In this document: piece by piece, positions 7,437 to 51,185 of the stretch
Layout: each line of letters starts with the position of its first letter
How positions within the stretch are numbered: position 1 is the stretch's first letter
DNA from: a virus
Length of the DNA stretch: 60,840 bases
Virus record (IMG/VR): IMGVR_UViG_3300009506_000030
Span: 1-60,840 of that record
Reading direction: 5' to 3' (one strand)
Position numbers and translations under genes: made by a program
Notes under the pieces: generated by a model
What the model was told of the DNA's origin: nothing
What the model saw: only the letters and a program-made list of their open reading frames with translations
Database searches by the model: none

Positions 7437-7600
7437 ACACTAAATGTATTCATGGATTCATGAGAAAGGATGAATGTGCTCGTTGCTTAGGCATGTATGA
7501 ATATATAAAAGATAGTGAGGCTAAGAAGGATGAAGATAGACATATCAGATTACAAACCATACGACACAATGAACAGCCCAAAGCTGTGGGAAAAGGTTGA
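7433..7600 (+). CDS. 55-residue Cys-containing protein
   Basis: MNTKCIHGFMRKDECARCLG: C-x9-C-x2-C with a nearby His suggests a small zinc knuckle. It sits behind AAGGAGGAAT and overlaps the start of the peptidase gene by 71 bases, so its C-terminal half may be shadow sequence, but the start signal is strong. Confidence 0.5.
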   Translation: MNTKCIHGFMRKDECARCLGMYEYIKDSEAKKDEDRHIRLQTIRHNEQPKAVGKG

Positions 7601-8006
7601 GCACTTCAATGCTTTTGAAGATTGGGGAGATCCTTACAAGATGTGGGTAATTTTAATTTATCACCTTGATTCTTTTAGGGAGTATTTAAAAAAACCGCTT
7701 ATTGTTCACTGTGGTTGGGAAATGAGAGATTCTGGCTGGCATCCTGCAGGAGCAGCAGTTGATCTTCATTGTCCATCACTATCATATAAGGATCTTGCAT
7801 TTAAAGCAATGCAGTTTACCTTTACTGGAATAGGACTGTATCCATGCTGGAACAATCCAGGGGTCCATTTAGATGTAAGGCCATTAGCAGATAATGATAA
7901 AAAAAGAAAATTATGGTACAGGCATGAATGGATGGACGGCAATATACTTAAAAAACAATATTACAATATAGAAGACTTAAGCACTCTGGCAATTCTGCCA
8001 GACTAA
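7530..8006 (+). CDS. M15-like metallopeptidase, candidate endolysin
   Basis: 158 residues. SGWHPAGAAVDLH (68-80) and VHLDVR (112-117) match the SxxHxxGxAxD and HxD metal-binding motifs of VanY/M15-type D-Ala-D-Ala peptidases, giving probable zinc ligands H71, D78 and H113. Such enzymes cut peptidoglycan cross-links and often serve as phage endolysins. There is no signal peptide or wall-binding domain. It ends the left operon, just before the terminator; the holin and spanin-like genes are on the other strand near 30-31 kb. The ATG at 7530 is preferred over a GTG at 7515. Confidence 0.75.
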   Translation: MKIDISDYKPYDTMNSPKLWEKVEHFNAFEDWGDPYKMWVILIYHLDSFREYLKKPLIVHCGWEMRDSGWHPAGAAVDLHCPSLSYKDLAFKAMQFTFTGIGLYPCWNNPGVHLDVRPLADNDKKRKLWYRHEWMDGNILKKQYYNIEDLSTLAILPD

Positions 8007-37480: not shown

Positions 37481-37570
37481 ATTAGGTATATAACGGTTTA
37501 GTTGGGAATATTACTGGCAAAAAAAATATATCAAAGTATAGTTGAGTATACTTGGGTATATTTAGGATAA
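37481..37570. promoter_or_regulatory. 10-bp phased TATA decamer array before the virion operon
   Basis: Read on the plus strand, successive 10-base blocks end in TATA or a near match: ATTAGGTATA (37481), a gap with GTTGGGAATA (37501), then AAAAAATATA, TCAAAGTATA, GTTGAGTATA, CTTGGGTATA (37521-37560). A helical-turn period puts all sites on one face of the DNA. It covers the only sizeable gap between the packaging block and the leftward virion operon and ends at the stop of the upstream gene. Probable activator or repressor sites. Confidence 0.6.
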
Positions 37571-38872
37571 GCTTTCCAGTGCTTTTTTATTCTGAATAAA
37601 TGGGTAATAGGCAAAATTGGACTCTGAAATAACCCCATCTATCATTAAATCCTTAATAAAAATATAATCTTCAAATCGGGGATAATTCTCCTTAGCTTCC
37701 TCAAAACATCTTTTAGCTCTAAGGAAATCCCCCATCTGCCTATAAGCACATCCCTTGTAGAACAAGGATGTACCTCTGCAAAATACGATATCTTCTGATT
37801 GTTCCTCTTTATATTGCTCCATTAAGACTATAACTTCTCTGTTCATGCCAGATTGAAGTAAGGTTGGAGCAAGACCAAGAAAAGCTTGGTTACTTGTTAA
37901 TGGGAATTTTTCAAAGATACCATCAATAATAGTATTAACGTTCTTGGTTTCAAAAAGTTCTTTTATGGTTTTATTTATTTTTTCAGCTGAATGATCGTAA
38001 GAATTAAGTATATTTAATATGCCATCATAATTTACATCGATTGCTTTATAAGAAGGGTTTTCCGATTTTTGCAATATAATTTGCATAGATCTATGATGCC
38101 CACTATATGAGCAATCAATAATGGCCAATCCAGCCTTGGAAGCAAGTCTTTGAAAGCTTTCAAAAGAAAATGTGCAATTATGAGCAGAAGACAAAAAAGC
38201 ATCAACTATTGTAGTTGGATATGGATATATATAAGATGGTGTCTCAATAATAATTAACCCATTATTATCAATAAACTGCTTAATGTGCCCTAAAAACTTA
38301 AGCGGAGAGTAAAAATGCTCAATAGTATTACATGAAATAATAATATCATACTTTTTATCTTCTTTAAAAGCAAAGACATTATTAAACATAATATCTATGC
38401 CAAATAGCTTCTGAGCTATATCATTACTCCTTTTGTCCATATCAATACCTTTTACAGTAGCTCCCATGGACTCAAGCCCTTTTAACAATACTCCTGTCCC
38501 AGAACCGACTTCTAATACGTTTTTTTGCTTTATGTTTATGTTGTGTTTCTTAATAAAATCAAGCATGTAGACTGATTTTATTACAGAATCAATAATACTT
38601 GCTTTTGAAATACCGTCAACCAATCCTTCTTTAAAGAGTGACAAATAATGCCCATCATAAAAAATATTCTGTGATTCTTCTGTAAGCATAGGATTTTTAA
38701 ATATTAACCCACAATCCATGCATAAAACATCTTTCATGTGAAAAAGAGTGCTTCCCTGCTTAATTAACCTTGCCTTTGACCATGGTTTTTTCTCCCATAT
38801 CAACTTCAGATTCTTGGAACCGCATACAATACAATCTCTTTCTTCTTCTTTATACGTTACAAATTCATCCAA
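37562..38872 (-). CDS. methyltransferase with zinc site and TPR tail
   Basis: 436 residues. An N-terminal zinc ribbon uses C14, C17, C51 and C54. A class I SAM methyltransferase follows with motif I EVGSGTG (121-127) and IISCNTIEHFY (about 175-185). The C-terminal 150 residues contain TPR-like helices (FYKGCAYRQMGDFLRAKRCF). Similar Cys-ribbon methyltransferases modify nucleotide sugars or glycans. It overlaps the terminase gene by 16 bases. Probably part of the glycan block rather than DNA modification. Confidence 0.7.
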   Translation of the reverse strand: MDEFVTYKEEERDCIVCGSKNLKLIWEKKPWSKARLIKQGSTLFHMKDVLCMDCGLIFKNPMLTEESQNIFYDGHYLSLFKEGLVDGISKASIIDSVIKSVYMLDFIKKHNINIKQKNVLEVGSGTGVLLKGLESMGATVKGIDMDKRSNDIAQKLFGIDIMFNNVFAFKEDKKYDIIISCNTIEHFYSPLKFLGHIKQFIDNNGLIIIETPSYIYPYPTTIVDAFLSSAHNCTFSFESFQRLASKAGLAIIDCSYSGHHRSMQIILQKSENPSYKAIDVNYDGILNILNSYDHSAEKINKTIKELFETKNVNTIIDGIFEKFPLTSNQAFLGLAPTLLQSGMNREVIVLMEQYKEEQSEDIVFCRGTSLFYKGCAYRQMGDFLRAKRCFEEAKENYPRFEDYIFIKDLMIDGVISESNFAYYPFIQNKKALESLS

Positions 38873-40623
38873 TGCTTGTCACTCCTTTTTGTCATAGGGT
38901 CAAAATCATCATAATGAAGCCTATCACGAACATCTGGCTTCACTGTTTCTGAAACAGGATCAATAATACCCTTGCTGTAAATTTGCTGTTCTCCATATTC
39001 CTGCTCCATACCACTCAGCATTATTAAAAAAGCCATCACAAGGTCATCTTTTCCTCTCCCATAAGCGCTTGCACCAGGCCCATAAGCATCCCGAACATAT
39101 ATCATCATTTCATCAACAAGTGATTCACTTTTAATGACAATCATTTTATTATTAATACAATATCTTCCCAAAGTAAGCATTGATGGCTTTGATGTAGGAT
39201 CTGTTTTCCACCCGTATTTGTCCTTGGAAACCCTGCTTAGAGCATCCATGACTTTTCTCTTGATAACATCCCAGTAATCCCTATCCAATATAGCATCTAT
39301 AACAGCATGACCGTAACCGAATGCTTCTGGAACTAACAGGGCCTTGTTATACATCACTCCAATATCAACAGCCAGCCATCCCAGTATCTTAGCATCTAGT
39401 TTTCCATGCCATTCAGCTGCTTGGCTGGCAATAATACCAGTTCTTCTGTCAAGAACACGAAATACTTCTATACCAGCCATATCTGTAGATCCTGGCTCTC
39501 CAGAAGAAGGATCAATGCCGATAACGTATTTTTCGCCAGGTATAGGATCTTCCCATATTTTAAGTCTTCCTATACTGTCAGAAACCAACTTCCCATTAGA
39601 AAGGTTTCCTATAAATTTAGGCTTTTCACACGCCCTCTTGTATTCTTTTAAAACAGCCCTGTCAAATACATTATTACCGCTGACAATAAATGCTTCATCA
39701 TCGGTAGTTGGATACTGCTCATGAAAAGCTTCAATGCTACTCTTATCACCTTCTGCAAGATTGTATCCTAAAAGACCAATCTGATTTCTTCTCCAATGAA
39801 GCTGCTCCAGTGTAGCCTGATGTTCATCTTGCAATTCTTTTTCTTCATCATCTAATGTATCAATTATTTTTTCCTTGTCTTTTATATCAGCAAAAGGCAT
39901 AGTATAATTTTCATGGTCAAGCCACGAATAAAAAAGAGGCTTGAATGCACTCTTCCCAGCCTTTGCTTTCTTCCATTCATTATAAAAATGCTCACCTTGT
40001 CCTACAATCCCGTTAGCTGTAGACTCTATAATAACAAATGTTCCAGGCTCCTGAAATGCAGTAGGGATAACAGCCTTTCTCACTGATTCTGCATCACGAT
40101 AGTTGGCATATTCAGAAAAATGGATGAAGTGATTACCAGATCCCAGTCCTGCTTTATTGGTGCAGGAGACTGTTCGCATGGATGATTTAAGACCATGGCC
40201 ACCGTATTTTTGCTGCTTACTTTTGGGTATATCGAACACGAGCTTAGAACTACTTTTATATTTGGTTTCTGGTTGCAGCTCTGGAGGGAGATACTCGTAG
40301 AAGACATGCGACATGTTGTGAATATAAGAACATCCTTCGTCATCTGCTGCGATAGTAATACCTTGCCTATGAGACTTGGTATGACACTCGTGGAACATTC
40401 TTGACTGGACATATGTTGATACACCATGCCTTCTGGCTTTAAGAACGATAAGTCTGATGGGCAAGTTATTTTGCTTGTGCCATTCCCATACTTTGTTGAT
40501 TTCTCTTTGTACGAATCTTTGGGAATAATCAAATTTTATTAATCCTTCACCTGCTTGAATCCATAATAAGTTTCTTGCATAGAAATCATAATCCTGCATT
40601 TGTGCAACTGTAACTTTATTCAT
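38857..40623 (-). CDS. terL: terminase large subunit
   Basis: 588 residues. Walker A-like KARRHGVST (62-70), Walker B region FIHFSEYAN (166-174, catalytic E171), coupling motif IIESTANG (198-205), and the RNase H-like nuclease with GIDPSSG (369-375, D371) and GKDDLVMAF near the end. It packages DNA through the portal. A possible small terminase lies directly upstream with an overlapping start. Confidence 0.9.
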   Translation of the reverse strand: MNKVTVAQMQDYDFYARNLLWIQAGEGLIKFDYSQRFVQREINKVWEWHKQNNLPIRLIVLKARRHGVSTYVQSRMFHECHTKSHRQGITIAADDEGCSYIHNMSHVFYEYLPPELQPETKYKSSSKLVFDIPKSKQQKYGGHGLKSSMRTVSCTNKAGLGSGNHFIHFSEYANYRDAESVRKAVIPTAFQEPGTFVIIESTANGIVGQGEHFYNEWKKAKAGKSAFKPLFYSWLDHENYTMPFADIKDKEKIIDTLDDEEKELQDEHQATLEQLHWRRNQIGLLGYNLAEGDKSSIEAFHEQYPTTDDEAFIVSGNNVFDRAVLKEYKRACEKPKFIGNLSNGKLVSDSIGRLKIWEDPIPGEKYVIGIDPSSGEPGSTDMAGIEVFRVLDRRTGIIASQAAEWHGKLDAKILGWLAVDIGVMYNKALLVPEAFGYGHAVIDAILDRDYWDVIKRKVMDALSRVSKDKYGWKTDPTSKPSMLTLGRYCINNKMIVIKSESLVDEMMIYVRDAYGPGASAYGRGKDDLVMAFLIMLSGMEQEYGEQQIYSKGIIDPVSETVKPDVRDRLHYDDFDPMTKRSDKHWMNL

Positions 40624-41317
40624 CTAACTCAATTTCACCTTCCTCCTGCAGCATCTTTTCATAAGTGCTAACTTGCTGCTCTTTGGCTGAACCTGATTTG
40701 GGAGCTAAAAAAACTCTGGCCTCTTCTGCCATTCTTACTTTAACATCATTGCTTGTCCTAGTATCGGCAATAATTTTATTCAATGCATTTATTACAACAA
40801 CACATTGTTTCTTTGATAGAAGGTCAAATGACTTAAGCAGATAACTGACCGCTGCCCTCTTCTCTTTCATGTCTATTTTTCTTTTAGTAACTAACTTCAT
40901 CATCTGATCTATTCTAAATTCTTCAGTATCCTTCATTAAATCAGAGACAAGATCAAAGTTACTTCCATAGTTATCCAGGTTATCTTTTGGCCTTATCCTT
41001 GGAGCAGCTACACGTTTATGCCTATCTATTTCATAATGATCAGTTTCCTTTGCATAACGATAATTATCATGAAGTCTTGCTAACCGTTTTCTAATGCAGT
41101 CATCGCAAAACCATATGTATTGCTTTATCCTACCCTGTGTAATATTATCATGAGTAAGATCAATGCCACAACCATTACACTTTTTATCTTCAGGAATTGG
41201 CAGCAGCTTCGGACCCTTGCGTTCCTCTATAATTTTTTTCAGTTCCTTCGTATACGTGTTTATAGAGTTTAAGGAGTCCAAAGAAGAATTCGAAGATTTC
41301 GATAAATCTTGCAACAA
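40616..41317 (-). CDS. putative small terminase-like protein with zinc ribbon
   Basis: 233 residues from a TTG start at 41317. A zinc ribbon CNGCGIDL ... FCDDC lies at residues 47-73; the rest is charged helices. Directly upstream of the large terminase with an 8-base overlap, the usual place for the small subunit. No helix-turn-helix was recognised, so the role is inferred from position. It overlaps the 3' end of the glycosyltransferase gene by 128 bases, so a later start is possible. Confidence 0.5.
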   Translation of the reverse strand: MLQDLSKSSNSSLDSLNSINTYTKELKKIIEERKGPKLLPIPEDKKCNGCGIDLTHDNITQGRIKQYIWFCDDCIRKRLARLHDNYRYAKETDHYEIDRHKRVAAPRIRPKDNLDNYGSNFDLVSDLMKDTEEFRIDQMMKLVTKRKIDMKEKRAAVSYLLKSFDLLSKKQCVVVINALNKIIADTRTSNDVKVRMAEEARVFLAPKSGSAKEQQVSTYEKMLQEEGEIELDE

Positions 41318-43121
41318 TTAACTCATCTCCTTTGTAAAGTGAGGGAAGGGTTTTTAAGGTATTCTCTTTTCCCATGCACCAAGATTGTATAACATGCATA
41401 ATAGTATAATAGCACATATCATGAGTAAGAATGCTGTCCTTCACCTTGCTAACATAATCAAAAATATCACTTATACTTTTATCTACAGTGCTATTATCAA
41501 ATAGGAGAAAACCCTTTTCCATATTTGCTAAAACTTCTTCTATTTCTTTTATGCTCCATGATAGATAATCAAGGCCTCTCTCTATTTCCTGATTAATGGT
41601 TTGAACATCATTTGCCTTTTCCTCATCGCTTGGAACAGCCAAACATTCTCTCAAGACATTGTTGGTTCCAATGTCATTTTGTATATACTTGTCAATCGCC
41701 TCTTGCAATGGCATAAAAACAGTACCGTTTATTCTAGCTCCACCTTCTGTTGCATTAATAACTGTGTACTCTCTCTTCTTTGTAGCTATATCAAATTCAA
41801 ATCTTTTAAGCATGCCAACCCATGTTTCTAAAGAATCAAGCATTTGTCCATCATTGCCGATTACTTTCGATTTCTGCTTTATGAGCTGTGAAGTTTTAAG
41901 ACCATTACTTGCATGATTAGCGCCAGTAACATGAGAATCACCATTAGGGGCAAAAGCAAGATCCTGACCAACAAGAATTATAGGATCACATCCCATATAT
42001 TCTGCAATCTTGTATGCCATATTTGTAACAGACTTGCCAGTGTTGAGTATTCCCTTGTCCAGTTTTAACCATTTGAAATGAGCAAAATCCCTGAACACAA
42101 CCATATGATCTCCATGCCATTCATTATAGACATGAGGCTTAACTACTGGACAGGCCCCCAGCCACATCCCCTTCATAGAATCCTTATTTTCTATTTGCTT
42201 AAAATGATTGCATGTGGTAAGGTTGCGTTCCAGTGAACAAACAATATCTGGAACGATAGGAGGATCATGGTTAACAAATGTATTTAAAGATGCATCAGCT
42301 GCAAAGAATACACATTTGTTTTTTATTGATGGAAGCAAATGTATATTTTTATTTAATGATGGACCAGTGGCAACAATAACAGCTGGCTTACCAGCAAACT
42401 TATCCTTAACCTTTGAAACACCTGGCTGAGAAGATATCAAATCAAGGTTCTGTAGCATGTGGTCTATCCCGAACCAACTGTCTTCTGGATCATTACCATA
42501 TGAGCTTTTAATATCATAACACACACGCCCTATTTCTTTGCAGAACGGCTTATAATAATCTTTGTTAAAACGTATCTCAACTGGATGTTCAATAAAATGA
42601 AAAGTAGTAAAAGACTGCTTTCCAGTATTGTTTATCTTATCATATATATATGAATAAACATTAGGGATAGGAACACCTGCTACAACATAGACTCCATCAT
42701 GATCAAATATGCTGCAATTACCATTAGGGGTATTTACTATGGGCTGTTGATGCCTTATGTACTGATTGAAGATCTGTAAATTATTTTCTACCATTATTAT
42801 AAAAGGTAAATCTTTTGCATACCTCTCAAAAATATAATTTAAATAATATCCCATTCCTATGCCAAGCATGACTATAACATTAGCACTTGTTATGTCTTCA
42901 GAAACAATATTAGATGCAAATGACTTGGCCTCAGCTATAGGGTCTTCCCTCGAATGAAGCAACCACTCTGTCTCACCAGTTTTAACAGTTAATGTCTTAA
43001 ATGGTGGTATCTTGGTAGGAATAACTTTAGTGCTGTAATCATCGCTCAAATGGCGTAGTTGATTAGCAAGCACTGGATACCTTTTAGCAATAGCAGCCAT
43101 GTTAAATTCATAAACACTCAT
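41190..43121 (-). CDS. Maf/DUF115-type glycosyltransferase
   Basis: 643 residues. Family motifs: GPSLNKNI (253-260), VFFAADASL (271-279), PDIVCSLE (291-298) and ILVGQDLAF further on. Motility accessory factor (Maf) proteins transfer nonulosonic acids from CMP-donors to flagellin Ser/Thr. Upstream genes resemble CMP-nonulosonate synthesis enzymes (NeuC, NeuB, NeuA), so the expected substrate is probably made by the phage. The acceptor may be the phage fibre or host flagellin. Overlaps the LarA-like gene by 4 bases. Confidence 0.75.
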   Translation of the reverse strand: MSVYEFNMAAIAKRYPVLANQLRHLSDDYSTKVIPTKIPPFKTLTVKTGETEWLLHSREDPIAEAKSFASNIVSEDITSANVIVMLGIGMGYYLNYIFERYAKDLPFIIMVENNLQIFNQYIRHQQPIVNTPNGNCSIFDHDGVYVVAGVPIPNVYSYIYDKINNTGKQSFTTFHFIEHPVEIRFNKDYYKPFCKEIGRVCYDIKSSYGNDPEDSWFGIDHMLQNLDLISSQPGVSKVKDKFAGKPAVIVATGPSLNKNIHLLPSIKNKCVFFAADASLNTFVNHDPPIVPDIVCSLERNLTTCNHFKQIENKDSMKGMWLGACPVVKPHVYNEWHGDHMVVFRDFAHFKWLKLDKGILNTGKSVTNMAYKIAEYMGCDPIILVGQDLAFAPNGDSHVTGANHASNGLKTSQLIKQKSKVIGNDGQMLDSLETWVGMLKRFEFDIATKKREYTVINATEGGARINGTVFMPLQEAIDKYIQNDIGTNNVLRECLAVPSDEEKANDVQTINQEIERGLDYLSWSIKEIEEVLANMEKGFLLFDNSTVDKSISDIFDYVSKVKDSILTHDMCYYTIMHVIQSWCMGKENTLKTLPSLYKGDELIVARFIEIFEFFFGLLKLYKHVYEGTEKNYRGTQGSEAAANS

Positions 43122-44152
43122 TTGTACTCCCCTAACATTATATCAGAACCATAATAAATAACTGCTTCAGCAGCTCTGCCCAAACGTAAATTAACAAACT
43201 GTAAAAAATCTGCTATGTTTGGAAAATTAAAAATCTCTCTGTGAAAATATACCTGAATAGCTTCTTCAGAAACAGAAGGGCATACAAAGCAAATCTGCCT
43301 GTTGTTATACTGTTCGCTAAAAACATCATCAAAAAATGCTGGTCTTAATCCATTTGGTTGCTGAAACCCATAGTGGACTCCTATCCCTTCAGGGCAATCA
43401 CTCCAGATACAAATAATACCACCATCCTTAACCTGTGTATGTTCCATAAAAACACACATTGCATTCATTGACTGGAGAAAATCTTTGTTCTTTATAATCG
43501 GAACTAAGATAGCAACATCAGTCGGATCAGGTAAAATAACAGAATAGTCATTGATCGCAGAACATCGAAAATGCCTAGCATGTAAAGAAGCTTTATAGAT
43601 AGATATACGTACAGGATCACCATAGCAGTTAATGCTATAGTTAACATAAGTCTCGATGCGCTCTCTTGTGCCTTGATAAAAACCTCTTTCCGCTTCTGTG
43701 ACGGAACCATGGAATTCCATGACATCTTGGTAACCACTCAATCCAGGTAAAACAATTTTACAATCACCACTTAACCCAACATATGTATGAGGAAGAACAC
43801 AACCAACCCCTATAATGTTATATTTCTTTTTATTGAGAGGGAAGTTGCAGAGTGGGCTATGTGAATATATCTTAAGCCTTTTGGTCAGATCGGACCCGAT
43901 TTTATCTGACACCTCATGGTGTGTGTTTGCACGATGTAACCCACTCGCCACAACAACTGCAACCTTATCCTCTCCAACTTTATTAACCGCATACTCAACT
44001 ACCATCCTTGCAATACTTGTTCTTGGTCTGGTAAAATCATCAATAACAATTAAAACATCTCTAGTGTCAAATGTAATGTTATGAATTTCATCTAATAGTT
44101 GGTATGTCTCAAGTGGTTTTATATGATTTAAACTTACCGTATCTAGCTGCAC
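43118..44152 (-). CDS. LarA-like nickel-dependent racemase/epimerase
   Basis: 344 residues. DDFTRP (38-43), SGLHRANTHHE (70-80), PHTYVGLSGDCKIVLPG (121-137) and FHG (147-149) match the LarA N-terminal domain. H73, H122, K132 and H148 align with LarA H108, H174, K184 and H200, the ligands and covalent lysine of the nickel-pincer cofactor; the last two gaps (10 and 16) are identical. Cofactor-building LarB/C/E are absent here. The protein is shorter than LarA (about 420). Overlaps the Maf-like and NeuA genes, so it is probably part of glycan chemistry. Confidence 0.75.
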   Translation of the reverse strand: MQLDTVSLNHIKPLETYQLLDEIHNITFDTRDVLIVIDDFTRPRTSIARMVVEYAVNKVGEDKVAVVVASGLHRANTHHEVSDKIGSDLTKRLKIYSHSPLCNFPLNKKKYNIIGVGCVLPHTYVGLSGDCKIVLPGLSGYQDVMEFHGSVTEAERGFYQGTRERIETYVNYSINCYGDPVRISIYKASLHARHFRCSAINDYSVILPDPTDVAILVPIIKNKDFLQSMNAMCVFMEHTQVKDGGIICIWSDCPEGIGVHYGFQQPNGLRPAFFDDVFSEQYNNRQICFVCPSVSEEAIQVYFHREIFNFPNIADFLQFVNLRLGRAAEAVIYYGSDIMLGEYK

Positions 44153-44802
44153 TTGTATTTTTTGATAAAAGTTTCAACTATTGCAAAGTCTTCTTTTGTG
44201 TTTATATTATATCCTCTGTGCTTAGGTATTATAGTATAGAACCTGTTTAAATCAACATGGTTAATATCGGTAACACATAAGTACTTTCTGCTATAAGAAT
44301 ACATATTGCCACTTCTTATGATTACTCCTTCTGGTTCAGTCCCTTCTTCCCATTGTATAGCTTGTTCCAAATAAGAAGGATTAATATTATCATCAACATA
44401 ATATGTTTTCCCCAAATGAAAGCCAGAAGACTCCATCTGAGTTATAAAACTTATAAGATCATTTTTATGTCTTAATGGATTAGTAGGCTGAAATAGTATT
44501 ACATGATCATATTCTTTATTGAATATCCTTTCAGCATGTAAAAGAGCATGTCTAACAGATATTACATGGGGAGTTTTGTCCTGGCATAATGCTTCTGGTC
44601 TCTTTAACTTGTGGAGACAATCTGGCACGTCAAATGATACTGGTGAATCAGAAGAAAAAATAATATCTTCAAAGAATCTTTTGTTTGCAACTAAAAAATC
44701 AGTGGTCCATTGATATAATGGTTTACCTCCAATAACTTTTTTGTTTTTTCCCCTCACCCGTACACTGGTCGATTTAGCGGTAACCAACCCAAGGATCTTC
44801 AT
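44143..44802 (-). CDS. neuA: CMP-nonulosonate cytidylyltransferase (NeuA-like)
   Basis: 219 residues. The nucleotide-binding start is TAKSTSVRVRGKNKKVIGGK (8-27), a variant of ARxGSKx(I)xxKN, followed by PLYQWT; LFQPTNPLR (about 103-111) is the LQPT(S/N)PLR motif. It would activate a nonulosonic acid with CTP. Overlaps neighbours on both sides (10 and 29 bases). The usual GS of the N-terminal motif is replaced by ST, so activity is not guaranteed. Confidence 0.75.
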   Translation of the reverse strand: MKILGLVTAKSTSVRVRGKNKKVIGGKPLYQWTTDFLVANKRFFEDIIFSSDSPVSFDVPDCLHKLKRPEALCQDKTPHVISVRHALLHAERIFNKEYDHVILFQPTNPLRHKNDLISFITQMESSGFHLGKTYYVDDNINPSYLEQAIQWEEGTEPEGVIIRSGNMYSYSRKYLCVTDINHVDLNRFYTIIPKHRGYNINTKEDFAIVETFIKKYKCS

Positions 44803-45409
44803 ACCAAAAACCTTTCCCCAACCATTTATTAGTTTCCCATACCCTTTTATTATAAAAATGTTCTATCAAGCCCTTTAATGCAGGATAAACCCATATAACA
44901 TCTAAACTTCTCAGAGAAAAACATTTATCCCTATAAACATCTTTATCCTCAAAAATGTTAGTAAGTTTTTTCGGTACTACATAATGAATATTCAAGCCAG
45001 TCTTTTTTACCTTAGACCTCATGTGTTTAATTAATTTTATCTGATAAACAGATTCATAATGCTCAAGTAAACCATAAGTAAAAACTATATCAAAAAAATG
45101 ATCTGGATATGGGATATCAAATGCATTAGCCCTGCAAAACTTATGATTCCTTCCGTTATCTGGAGGTATATAATATTTATCTATAGTATGTGTATCCATA
45201 CCACATCCATATAAGTAATCACTCATTATAGACCTGCCACATCCCACTTCAAGAGATTTAAGATCTTTTAAATTGCCTTCTGGAAAGTGCATAGTAGCTC
45301 TTGTTTTTAAAAACATGGCATTTAAATAAAATGCATGTTCATCAATCTGCTTCCCCTGTCTTTTAGACCAGAATTTTACCCAATTGTTTAGCAATTTTCT
45401 CTCCAGCAT
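44774..45409 (-). CDS. class I SAM methyltransferase
   Basis: About 211 residues. Motif I is LEVGCGRSIMSDYL and the post-I region FDIVFTYGLLEHYE is typical of Methyltransf_11-type enzymes. It sits between NeuC and NeuA homologues and may methylate the sugar. The start is uncertain: ATGs and a TTG (45394) are all inside the 3' end of the NeuC-like gene. Confidence 0.7.
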   Translation of the reverse strand: MLERKLLNNWVKFWSKRQGKQIDEHAFYLNAMFLKTRATMHFPEGNLKDLKSLEVGCGRSIMSDYLYGCGMDTHTIDKYYIPPDNGRNHKFCRANAFDIPYPDHFFDIVFTYGLLEHYESVYQIKLIKHMRSKVKKTGLNIHYVVPKKLTNIFEDKDVYRDKCFSLRSLDVIWVYPALKGLIEHFYNKRVWETNKWLGKGFWYEDPWVGYR

Positions 45410-46490
45410 GACCATCACCATACATAGTATCACGCTGATAATATCTCTTCCTCTGTCTAGTGATGGCTTGTTTCAAAATTACTCTGTCAAATGGAACATG
45501 AGAGACATTCCTTCCACACTCTCTTCCTTCCTGTCGATCACCAATGCTGACAGATGGAATACCAAGAAAAGTAGCCTCTCTTATACCAGCAGAACTGTTA
45601 CCAATAATACAACAACACTGACACATTAAAGCGCTAAAAACAGCAGAATCCAAATGTCTAATATATCTAACGTTTGAATCCCAGTTAAGTTCTTTAATCA
45701 TTCTCCACGCTTTAGCTATCTTGTCACTGCCAGGATCAATATTGGGCCACATAACTATTTTCTGTTCATCAAATTCATTTAAAACATCAAATACCATATT
45801 GACCTGTTCTCCAGTTACTGGATCTCCTTTTGTATCTGGATGAAGCATAATAATAAAGAAATCTCCATATATCTCTATTTTATCACCATCCCCATGCCTA
45901 TTAACTTCATCCTGTATTGATTTCCAGTTAGGAACTAATGAACTAAGCAAGTCCATAGAAGGGCATCCCATTGCCCAAATTCTAGCATGATCTTTTTGCT
46001 TCATCTGCAGTATTCTATCTGCAGCATCTGCAGTAGCAGGAAAATGATAATCAGCAAGCTGTGTTATTGCATTGCGTACCTTATCATCTATTGTTCCAGA
46101 AATCTCTCCTCCTTGAAGATGAACAAGAGGAATGTTCACATAAGAAGCAGCTATCGCAGTAGCAAGAGTTTCATACCTGTCTGCAACAGTCATAATCATA
46201 TCTGGATTTTCATTGTCAAAAATAGTGGAAAGTTCAACGATGCCCAAACCAACAGTCTTAGGCATTTTGACGAGATCATCGCCCTCAACAGCCAATGACG
46301 TTTTGAAAATTCTTATATCAGGAAAGTCTTGTACTATATTATCAATAGCATATCCATACTTATACAAATATAAACTATTGCCCAGTGCAAGTACAGGTTC
46401 TATGTGTGCAGGAAGATTCTTTATTATTGTCTTTACTTTGTTGTAACTGCTTCTGTTCGTTACCGCTATTACTAACTTTTTCCGCTTCAT
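45363..46490 (-). CDS. neuC: UDP-GlcNAc 2-epimerase, hydrolysing (NeuC-like)
   Basis: 375 residues. VADRYETLATAIAASYVNIP (102-121) and LVHLQGGEISGTIDDKVRNA (122-141) match the NeuC/LegG pattern, and the C-terminal GNSSAGIREATFLGIPSVSI binds the UDP. It would make ManNAc (or a diacetyl analogue) plus UDP, the first committed step to nonulosonic acid. AAAAGGGATG precedes the start. No 4,6-dehydratase or aminotransferase for legionaminate or pseudaminate is in the window, so plain Neu5Ac-type product or host cooperation is implied. Confidence 0.8.
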   Translation of the reverse strand: MKRKKLVIAVTNRSSYNKVKTIIKNLPAHIEPVLALGNSLYLYKYGYAIDNIVQDFPDIRIFKTSLAVEGDDLVKMPKTVGLGIVELSTIFDNENPDMIMTVADRYETLATAIAASYVNIPLVHLQGGEISGTIDDKVRNAITQLADYHFPATADAADRILQMKQKDHARIWAMGCPSMDLLSSLVPNWKSIQDEVNRHGDGDKIEIYGDFFIIMLHPDTKGDPVTGEQVNMVFDVLNEFDEQKIVMWPNIDPGSDKIAKAWRMIKELNWDSNVRYIRHLDSAVFSALMCQCCCIIGNSSAGIREATFLGIPSVSIGDRQEGRECGRNVSHVPFDRVILKQAITRQRKRYYQRDTMYGDGHAGEKIAKQLGKILV

Positions 46491-48320: not shown

Positions 48321-48625
48321 ACATCCTCATCATCTTTCTCCTCCACAGTTATTTGTCTGATTCCTTCGCCACTATCCACAATAAATAGAGTACCGCCATT
48401 ATTGCCAGGATGTTTATTATGTAATATAGCATTTTCCCTCCAGAAAATTCTAATAAAAAAGCTTAAACAAGCCCCAATAAAAAATAGAGCAACCAAAATA
48501 GGAACAAAAACAAAAATAAAAGCTGTTGTATATAAAACTATCATTCCCATGGAAATTGCCATAATAATATCTAAGACTCTTCCACAAGTTTCTTTAATTT
48601 TTCTTTTGACATTTTGTATTCGCAT
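48296..48625 (-). CDS. membrane protein overlapping the reductase gene
   Basis: 109 residues. Two hydrophobic segments (IIMAISMGMIVLYTTAFIFV and PILVALFFIGACLSFFI), then a polar tail. It starts 55 bases inside the 3' end of the ribonucleotide reductase gene; a later start is possible. Function unknown. Confidence 0.5.
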   Translation of the reverse strand: MRIQNVKRKIKETCGRVLDIIMAISMGMIVLYTTAFIFVFVPILVALFFIGACLSFFIRIFWRENAILHNKHPGNNGGTLFIVDSGEGIRQITVEEKDDEDVCQHQSIH

Positions 48626-50325
48626 GGAGTCAATACCTCTTCACCCCTACTTCCTTCACGATAAATCGTGACTCCCTTTACATCATACATATGATCAAGC
48701 AATAATTTATTCAGCTTTATCTCTGGATAGTCATGCCTGACAGGAACGGTCAAAGAAATAGAATTATCTATATACTGTTGTGCAGTGCTTTGTATCTCAA
48801 AATACTTTTCTGGATTTATTTCGTATGATCCAACAAAATGGCTCACATCCTTACCAGATAAAACAAATTGCTTAAAGAGAGGATCAACCTCAGTCACCTG
48901 CTGCTTCTTACCTCCAACATAGTATCTTCGCTTATATATGGGATGGAAAATAGACTGTATCCCTTGGCTAACCCCAGCAACGATAGAAGTAGTTCCTGTT
49001 GGTGGCATCGATAGTAGTGTCCCATTTCGCAATCCAAATTCCTCAATGTCTTTACGAATTCTCCTGGGGAGAGTGCGAACAAAGCTCCCTTCGAGATGGT
49101 CACTGGCCTGAAATTTTTGGAACGGACCTCTTTCTTTTGACAATTCAATGCTTGCTTCATAGGCATAATTTCGAAACTTTGTGAGCAGTCCTTCCATAAA
49201 CTCAATACTGTCTTTTGAGCCATAGTCATTTATCCCCATCTTAAGCATTAAATAATGCAAACCCATCACACCAAGACCAATCCTTCTTGTTGATCGTGAA
49301 ACAAGATCAATTTCTGGCAATGGGTATTCTGTTACATCAAGAACATTGTCTAAAAACCTAACTGCATAGTATACGATAGTCTTTAATAATTTCCAGTCTA
49401 CATCATTTTTCTTTTCATCATAAAATAATGAAAGGTTAATACTTCCAAGATCACATGCACCATTTTTGGGTACTGGTATTTCACCGCAAGGATTAACAGC
49501 AACAATCTTTTCACAGTACCATAAAGGATTGTTAAGCTCTATATTGTCAAAATTTAAGAATCCAGGTTCTGCCTTTTTCCATGCATGGTTAACAGCTGTG
49601 TCCCATATATCTCTTGCCTTAACTGTTTTATATATTCTATTGTTAAATTGGAGATTCCACTCCTTATCTTTTTTAACAGCATTGAGAAAATCATTAGTAA
49701 GCTTCACACTTATATTAAAATTTTCCCATTCAGTATCTTTTATTTTCTTAGCAATAAATTCAAATATCTGCGGATGTGATGGATGCATAAAAGTAATGCC
49801 AGCACCACGCCTATCACCTCCTCCTCTTATTAGACCAAGCCAAAAGTTAGTACCATCAATAAAAGACAATGCTCCAGAAGACTCGGAATTATTTCCCTGA
49901 GAAACTAATGGAGTACCTTTAGGTCTTAAAGGGGAAGAATCAAAGCCAACACCACCACCGTATTTAGAGATAATAACCGCATCAGAGAGAAGTTTGACAA
50001 TGCTTTGAATATTATCTTCCCATTCAAGCCCAAAACAATTAAGCAGCATTCCCTTATTCTTACCAGCATTACGTAATATTCTACCTCCTGGAATAAAGAG
50101 AAAACGCTCAATCATATCACGATATGCCTGATAATAAACCTGTCTCTTCCCGTTAGGGTCTACAGAGCTGATAGACTTTGCAACTCTATCAGCACACCCT
50201 GCCCAGGTTTCATTATCATTTAACGCATATCGTAATTTAAAGATACTGTCGCTTAACCCACTAAGATCACGTTGATCTGATATGTTGCATCCAAGATCAT
50301 CGCACTCTTCACATAGCTTTGTCAT
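48571..50325 (-). CDS. nrdJ: class II (B12-dependent) ribonucleotide reductase
   Basis: 584 residues. Active-site features: LLNCFGL (C97), NPCGEIP (278-284, C280 and E282), GACDLGSINL, TGTTSIVAGVSQGIQSIF, in NrdJ order. No R2 or NrdG partner is in the window, which fits adenosylcobalamin chemistry. It supplies dNTPs for phage replication. Oddities: an N-terminal CEECDDLGC, and no C-terminal Cys pair (only TPCEYK), though NrdJ enzymes usually carry a redox pair there. Its activity would depend on host cobalamin. Confidence 0.85.
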   Translation of the reverse strand: MTKLCEECDDLGCNISDQRDLSGLSDSIFKLRYALNDNETWAGCADRVAKSISSVDPNGKRQVYYQAYRDMIERFLFIPGGRILRNAGKNKGMLLNCFGLEWEDNIQSIVKLLSDAVIISKYGGGVGFDSSPLRPKGTPLVSQGNNSESSGALSFIDGTNFWLGLIRGGGDRRGAGITFMHPSHPQIFEFIAKKIKDTEWENFNISVKLTNDFLNAVKKDKEWNLQFNNRIYKTVKARDIWDTAVNHAWKKAEPGFLNFDNIELNNPLWYCEKIVAVNPCGEIPVPKNGACDLGSINLSLFYDEKKNDVDWKLLKTIVYYAVRFLDNVLDVTEYPLPEIDLVSRSTRRIGLGVMGLHYLMLKMGINDYGSKDSIEFMEGLLTKFRNYAYEASIELSKERGPFQKFQASDHLEGSFVRTLPRRIRKDIEEFGLRNGTLLSMPPTGTTSIVAGVSQGIQSIFHPIYKRRYYVGGKKQQVTEVDPLFKQFVLSGKDVSHFVGSYEINPEKYFEIQSTAQQYIDNSISLTVPVRHDYPEIKLNKLLLDHMYDVKGVTIYREGSRGEEVLTPCEYKMSKEKLKKLVEES

Positions 50326-50363: not shown

Positions 50364-51185
50364 TTAAATAATATACCTAGTCTTATAATGCTCATAACTT
50401 TCTCTTTCCCTATCCTGCATTACTAATCTGCCATCCCCAAACATACGAGATATTCTCTTGCATAATCCAACCAGGTTTCCCATGTCCTGTGGACTGCTTG
50501 CTATTTCTGAAGTAGGACCAAAACTGCCCTTTATTTTAAAATGTTTTTCTAAATAAGAAGCTCCTAGACTAACAGCGAGAAAACAAGGTAAATCATCAAG
50601 ATGATGATCGCTATAGCCAAAAGCAACTCTAGTCTTATCAATCCCACCGTATTTTTCCCTTAACGCAAGAATCCTGGATAAATTAAGCTCAGAATCATGC
50701 GTTGGATACAAAGAAACGCAATGCATGATAACAAGCTCATAAGTACAGTCTACAAGATCATATAAAATATCAAGTTCATTTGCATCCTTTATCATTCCCG
50801 TAGAAACAAACACCCTCCTCCATTGATGCTCTTTTATGGCATTTACCAGAAGAGGATGTAATTGACCAGAAGCTATCTTTATGTTAGAAACGTTTGTCCT
50901 CGTACAAAGTTCTACCATATTAGCATGATGAACTGTCGCTATAAGATCAATCCCATGGAAATCACAATCACTCTTAATTTCCTTTAATAAACTGTCCTTG
51001 ATCTCACAAGCCTTTATATTTTCTTTCTTATCCTGCCATGGATTACCTATTCTGCCAGAATCCTTTAACTGTACTTTTAAAAAATCTACCTGACAAACAG
51101 CAGCGTTATGAATAGTATCTTTAAGTAATTCTTCATCACCCTGCCAGTAATTAGCTATTTCTGCTATTATTTTTATATTCTTCAT
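50364..51185 (-). CDS. neuB: nonulosonate synthase, NeuB-like, lacking SAF domain
   Basis: 273 residues. TIM-barrel motifs of NeuB: IIAEIANYWQGD (6-17), KIASGQ (103-108), VSTGM (127-131), HCVSLYPT (155-162), GYSDHH (190-195) and SLGASYLEKHF (206-216). It would condense PEP with ManNAc or an analogue. Family members have about 340-350 residues with a C-terminal SAF (antifreeze-like) domain that closes the active site of the dimer; that domain is missing. It lies about 4 kb from the other pathway genes, next to an unknown gene. Confidence 0.75.
   Translation of the reverse strand: MKNIKIIAEIANYWQGDEELLKDTIHNAAVCQVDFLKVQLKDSGRIGNPWQDKKENIKACEIKDSLLKEIKSDCDFHGIDLIATVHHANMVELCTRTNVSNIKIASGQLHPLLVNAIKEHQWRRVFVSTGMIKDANELDILYDLVDCTYELVIMHCVSLYPTHDSELNLSRILALREKYGGIDKTRVAFGYSDHHLDDLPCFLAVSLGASYLEKHFKIKGSFGPTSEIASSPQDMGNLVGLCKRISRMFGDGRLVMQDRERESYEHYKTRYII

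Follow-up and report, generated by a model that had tools for sequence, protein, structure and literature searches.

The window, that is, the whole 60,840-nucleotide stretch of the IMG/VR virus record IMGVR_UViG_3300009506_000030, carries a cluster of minus-strand genes in the order neuB, ribonucleotide reductase, neuC, methyltransferase, neuA, larA, maf, a small ORF and the terminase large subunit. The neuB-like gene (50364..51185) encodes a synthase of 273 aa matching Pfam NeuB at 9.8e-34 and TIGR03569 at 8.5e-31, and a B12-dependent ribonucleotide reductase gene (48571..50325; TIGR02504 5.4e-133, over the cut-off) is found next to it inside the cluster. The neuC gene (45363..46490) encodes a hydrolysing UDP-GlcNAc 2-epimerase that scores 290 bits with TIGR03568 against a cut-off of 236 and matches Epimerase_2 at 1.6e-56. 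A SAM methyltransferase gene (44774..45433; Methyltransf_23 7.6e-8), found at the same place in three related phage contigs (L013, L023 and L025), separates neuC from a neuA/pseF-like gene for a CTP_transf_3 cytidylyltransferase (44143..44802; CTP_transf_3 2.5e-6, over the Pfam cut-off; PseF 5.7e-9). The larA-like gene (43118..44152) starts with GTG and encodes 344 aa comprising Lar_N and a LarA-type C-terminal domain. It overlaps neuA by 10 nt and the next gene by 4 nt; a sequence-only reading of this DNA had described both overlaps. This next gene (41190..43121) encodes a Maf/PseD-like motility-associated glycosyltransferase (MptE-like 2.8e-41; Maf_flag10_N 2.4e-5; FlagModPseD 2.5e-51, below the equivalog cut-off). 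A small conserved ORF (40616..41317), with no Pfam family above cut-off and the same order in all relatives, follows at the position of terS, which it may represent, and the terminase large subunit (38857..40623) is recognised by PHROG terminase matches to 1.9e-14 and by its relatives. Downstream of the terminase, a minus-strand gene at 37562-38872 encodes a methyltransferase with a TPR tail, whose counterparts occupy the same place in L010, L004, L013 and L014.

The cluster belongs to the nonulosonate and Maf type by its NeuC over the equivalog cut-off, its NeuB domain, its CTP_transf_3 domain and its Maf-like transferase; NeuB, NeuA and Maf of the window pass the domain cut-offs and not the equivalog cut-offs. 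The C-terminal SAF domain was not detected in the NeuB-like proteins of the window, L013, L023 and L025, nor in those of two archaeal loci described below (L070 and L192). Such SAF-less synthases in phages and in fusion-bearing archaea hint at a non-standard acceptor sugar. Elsewhere in the window, a minus-strand gene at 52841-54175 encodes a TROVE/Ro60-like protein (TROVE 7.3e-20; vWA_Ro60 1.3e-4), a homologue in a phage of the RNA-binding protein Ro60.

The ORF at 43118-44152 was proposed from the letters alone to be a LarA homologue, and it is confirmed as such on the minus strand: Lar_N is matched at 5.9e-21 (75.1 bits against a gathering cut-off of 23.3) and solved LarA chains at about 1e-9. 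NCBIfam LarA/malate-racemase models also match at about 1e-19, with 70 bits against the equivalog cut-offs of 460 for lactate racemase (NF033504) and 500 for malate racemase (NF052593), neither of which is reached. No family in PHROGs matches the protein. An AlphaFold2 model built from a 28-sequence alignment, which included cellular LarAs, has a pLDDT of 89 and a pTM of 0.88, and it superposes by VIA on 9eia, a LarA with bound D-lactate, with a Z of 31.6 and 3.2 A over 335 residues across both domains. A model built earlier from five phage sequences had a pLDDT of only 60; LarA-family entries were the only structures matched by this low-confidence phage-only model at E below 0.001. The two-domain LarA fold of the window protein is supported by these models, not independently proven.

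Residues of LarA are given here after 2yjg, whose numbering equals that of L. plantarum LarA at every residue checked. Catalytic D72, H108 and H174 are kept in the window protein as D39, H73 and H122, and NPN-binding R75, K184 and H200 as R42, K132 and H148, the latter three being invariant in the phage homologues where the sequence reaches. The equation of H73, H122, K132 and H148 with H108, H174, K184 and H200, made earlier without a structure, is thus borne out by the mapping on 2yjg. The accompanying statement that all nickel-pincer residues are present holds for the cofactor-binding residues and the catalytic Asp and His, and fails at K298, which is Asn throughout the phage family (N230 in the window protein; seven of seven distinct homologues). 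Q295 is kept as Q227, and Y294, which is L226 in the window protein, is lost in all seven. Lactate racemases have F-F after their second catalytic His; most of the phage homologues have polar residues at these positions, chiefly T/N followed by H/Y/R. In LarA proteins, D72, H108, H174 and K298 are catalytic and R75, K184 and H200 bind NPN; some LarA groups lack H174 or K298, so K298 is not universal (PMC7583248). In Isosphaera LarA, the substrate carboxylate is held by Arg73, the two histidines, Gln295 and Lys298 (PMC11851776), so that one of five substrate-carboxylate contacts is changed in the phage protein. The phage enzyme keeps the residues needed for the cofactor and acid/base chemistry of LarA, and the changes at K298 and Y294, together with the mostly polar residues after H122, fit a change of substrate.

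Relatives were found in IMG/VR by a motif pattern (2 true among 9 matches) and by alignment searches; a viral-contig scan with the single protein gave none. The homologue contigs are L013 (62.5 kb), L010, L004/L015, L014/L022, L023/L026 and L025, all of them metagenome contigs, which together with the window yield seven distinct proteins of 24-42% pairwise identity. All eight LarA active-site columns are invariant in these homologues, with K298 as Asn and 5-7 rows per column, while only 32 of the 344 positions are invariant in the whole phage alignment. A naive hypergeometric calculation gives 2e-9 for all eight being invariant, which suggests more than chance conservation of the active site. 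The phage clade is monophyletic in the tree with an ultrafast bootstrap of 94. No isolated phage shares the Maf of the window, and a NeuC search returned distant matches only. Among 50,697 phage records, a comparable LarA match was found in only two unannotated gut contigs, L155 and L256. The former (MT839865.1, “Bacteriophage sp.”) was rejected as a source of phage LarA, since it looks bacterial, encoding a full-length LarA together with a GntR-like regulator and a transporter of the MFS type. Motifs of the phage family were found in no cellular member among the matches listed; restriction of the subfamily to viruses is not proven.

The gene order is conserved along with the protein. L013, L023 and L025 have neuB and a neuC-methyltransferase-neuA-larA-maf-terL run in the same order as the window, and L010 and L014, which are truncated at contig ends, match it as far as their sequences reach; L004 shows larA, maf and terL. 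In all five contigs that reach neuA, larA is found between neuA and maf; in the remaining L004 and L014 it adjoins maf. Every contig that bears maf has larA beside it, with one ORF intervening in L010. This ORF (L010:1399-1920; 173 aa) resembles an HNH homing endonuclease. The spacing between neuA and larA ranges from -19 to +13 nt across the phages, and larA usually overlaps or nearly touches maf. The cluster is joined to the terminase large subunit in the window and in the relatives, in agreement with the earlier attribution of the gene to a phage genome.

As had been noted from the sequence, larB, larC and larE are absent here: the LarB, LarC and LarE models match nothing in the window or in the 62.5-kb L013, nor in L023 and L025, virus records that may be fragments, and LarC is absent from the remaining phage contigs, too. 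Because none of the phage records checked has larBCE, NPN would come from the host, and we infer that the phage LarA-like enzyme would depend on this supply. A peptidase at 7515-8006 of the window is related to a bacterial M15 family (1e-5, just under the cut-off), which weakly suggests a bacterial host.

NeuA-LarA associations are also found in cells. At least 80 LarA loci were found by a motif scan across genomes of bacteria and archaea, and Asn at position 298 is found in 4 of the 80 cellular LarA matches listed: L037 and L041 from Calditrichota, L093 from an unclassified bacterium and L070 from a thaumarchaeote. The three bacterial genes lie either with an AMP-binding ligase and a sugar epimerase-like ORF, as L093 does, or among probable glycan genes. 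In L070, CTP_transf_3 (8e-20) and Lar_N (1.5e-54) are encoded in one ORF directly after NeuB. A sample of 300 Nitrososphaeria genomes contains four fusion ORFs of CTP_transf_3 and Lar_N (L190, L191, L192 and L193; 654-666 aa), each right after NeuB; three are closely alike and one is divergent. The archaeal fusions have Asn at 298, Lys at 75 and Leu at 295. Of 14 other archaeal LarAs aligned, six likewise have a residue other than Gln at 295, and Asn at 298 is limited to L194 and L195. All four fusion-bearing Nitrososphaeria genomes carry LarB, LarC and LarE over cut-off; LarC is common in the class (237 of the 300 genomes), so that its presence in these four is not specific. A Lar_N protein was found in only 21 of the same 300 genomes, and most sampled Nitrososphaeria seem to make the nickel-pincer cofactor with no recognisable LarA user.

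Outside the fusions, no NeuA, NeuB or NeuC was found near LarA in 32 sampled cellular regions (14 archaeal and 18 from the phylum of L093), so the NeuA-LarA link is not background. Long LarA ORFs in that phylum were checked as candidate NeuA fusions and are not fusions. The tree likewise lends no support to the phage clade being sister to the archaeal fusions, with which it does not group specifically, and the two NeuA-LarA associations may therefore be independent. LarA in sediment Thaumarchaeota was read as a sign of lactate use (PMC8397731). The context of the Nitrososphaeria fusions suggests glycan synthesis, with no identity to the LarA of that study implied. A sugar-acid context, which the sequence-only reading had drawn from the NeuA- and Maf-like neighbours, is strengthened by neuB and neuC, by conservation across related phages and by these archaeal fusions, which mirror it.

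From the homology, the residue conservation, the fold model, the conserved cluster and the archaeal fusion ORFs in genomes with larBCE, the phage protein is probably an NPN-dependent hydride-transfer isomerase in the synthesis of a nonulosonate-type donor sugar for the Maf transferase; its cofactor use and activity, and the order of the pathway, are what we infer from the same evidence. In such a pathway, NeuC would convert a UDP-sugar into an N-acylmannosamine-type sugar, the NeuB-like synthase would extend it with PEP, the NeuA-like enzyme would activate the product with CMP, and Maf would move the CMP-activated sugar onto protein. The LarA-like enzyme would alter the configuration of a hydroxy acid, either an intermediate or a substituent of the sugar, by NPN-mediated removal and return of a hydride, in which H73 and H122 may act as alternating acid/base, K132, H148 and R42 may serve the cofactor, and R42 and Q227, with N230 instead of Lys, may surround the acid group of the substrate. 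What speaks against this assignment is that K298, a substrate-carboxylate contact (PMC11851776), appears as Asn, and that Y294 is lost.

The substrate needs to be reconsidered on chemical grounds. LarA transfers the alpha-carbon hydride of a 2-hydroxy acid to NPN and returns it on the opposite face, two histidines serving as acid and base. In a 3-deoxy-2-ulosonic acid, C2 is the anomeric centre, a ketone or hemiketal that bears no C-H. LarA would thus find no alpha hydride to abstract, and the earlier suggestion of C2 of a nonulosonic acid as the site of reaction is chemically untenable. The C1-C2 portion of the NeuB product is not an alpha-hydroxy acid, so that none of the known LarA reactions applies directly to a nonulosonic acid. 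What remains is either a 2-hydroxy acid, as an intermediate or a substituent, or another stereocentre bound in a new way. A tentative version of the latter, perhaps possible and short of probable, is that the subfamily acts directly on the nonulosonic acid or its CMP form, where it would invert a carbon other than the one alpha to the carboxylate or move a hydride from one position of the sugar to another.

Other explanations take the same gene differently. It is scarcely conceivable that larA is a contig artefact or cellular contamination: the window is a single metagenome record and the LarA-bearing “phage” record from gut resembles bacterial DNA, but the same gene order joined to the terminase recurs on independent contigs from several metagenomes. 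A general auxiliary gene of host metabolism, such as a lactate or malate racemase unrelated to its sugar neighbours, would agree with the best HMM matches, which are the lactate and malate racemase models, and with the many LarAHs that racemise small 2-hydroxy acids (PMC11770544). This is quite improbable, because the scores fall far under the cut-offs of those models, F-F after the second catalytic His mostly gives way to polar residues, larA keeps its position between neuA and maf or beside maf in every contig described above, and the archaea have NeuA-LarA fusion ORFs.

The loss of K298 and Y294 in all seven phage members, the overlap or fusion of larA with neuA, and the absence of Q295 and the change of R75 to Lys in the archaeal fusions might instead mean that NPN catalysis was lost with the change of K298 to Asn and that the protein serves the NeuA enzyme as a subunit with a structural or binding role. 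We regard this as rather unlikely, as mere binding would not require that both acid/base histidines and three NPN-binding residues stay invariant at 24-42% identity, and the archaea with the fusion carry the complete gene set for making NPN. Somewhat less doubtful, though still not favoured, is a sub-case of the pathway proposed here with a different substrate, in which LarA determines the stereochemistry of a free hydroxy acid (e.g., lactate or glycerate) that is later attached to the sugar as an acyl decoration. This would retain the known substrate class of LarA and give a role to the conserved methyltransferase next to larA and neuA, which could modify the hydroxy acid; the bacterial LarAH L093, with its AMP-binding ligase and sugar epimerase-like neighbours and Asn at 298, points the same way. 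Against it, the phage genes from neuC to terL include no recognised acyl-activating or acyl-transfer enzyme, and the archaeal fusion partner is a nonulosonate-activating domain, not an acyl ligase.

For many LarA homologues, we know of no substrate. If the donor-sugar assignment is right, the subfamily with Q-x-x-N in place of Q-x-x-K and the archaeal NeuA-LarA fusions offer such homologues a concrete, testable pathway. Phages that rely on an organometallic cofactor of the host are rare, as are phages with most of a sialic-acid-like glycosylation pathway beside their packaging genes; this phage would add to both. The nickel-pincer cofactor probably serves sugar decoration, viruses included. 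Direct action on the nonulosonic acid or its CMP form, if true, would be a new reaction class for this cofactor, serving archaea through the NeuA-LarA fusions and phages that use host NPN for non-standard sialic-acid-like protein decoration. Searches of open-access papers turned up neither a phage LarA nor a LarA that works in a nonulosonate-type pathway.

Compared with the LarA superfamily (lactate racemase and LarAH; PF09861), the phage protein shares the two-domain fold and the equivalents of D72, R75, H108, H174, K184, H200 and Q295; it is short (344 versus about 425 aa), about 17-18% identical to solved LarA by structural alignment, below all NCBIfam equivalog cut-offs, viral, and located within a sugar-activation cluster. 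New within this known superfamily is a subfamily that is viral and linked to glycans through the activation of nonulosonate-type sugars. LarASp and LarABw, LarAHs with non-canonical active sites (PMC12611868), likewise combine a LarA-like fold, changed substrate residues and a suggested carbohydrate role, but they have H174 changed to Asn, whereas the phage protein keeps both histidines and has Asn for K298. Bacterial flagellin nonulosonate pathways with Maf (NeuC/NeuB/NeuA, or Pse/Leg with Maf/PseD) have NeuC, NeuB, CTP_transf_3 and a Maf-like transferase in common with the phage cluster, in which NeuB lacks SAF, NeuA and Maf stay below equivalog cut-offs, larA is added and packaging genes adjoin. 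A precedent is EpaA/EpaB, prophage-encoded 8-epipseudaminic acid enzymes of Acinetobacter, in which phage NulO-modifying redox enzymes are coupled to a cytidylyltransferase (PMC12053666). Both systems comprise a phage-borne CTP_transf_3 enzyme and a redox-type isomerising enzyme in a nonulosonate pathway, and EpaA has its cytidylyltransferase fused to a redox domain, as in the archaeal NeuA-LarA ORFs. Their redox parts are an aldo-keto reductase domain (EpaA) and a short-chain dehydrogenase (EpaB), whereas here a LarA domain with NPN residues is found, and the window phage has its own neuB and neuC.
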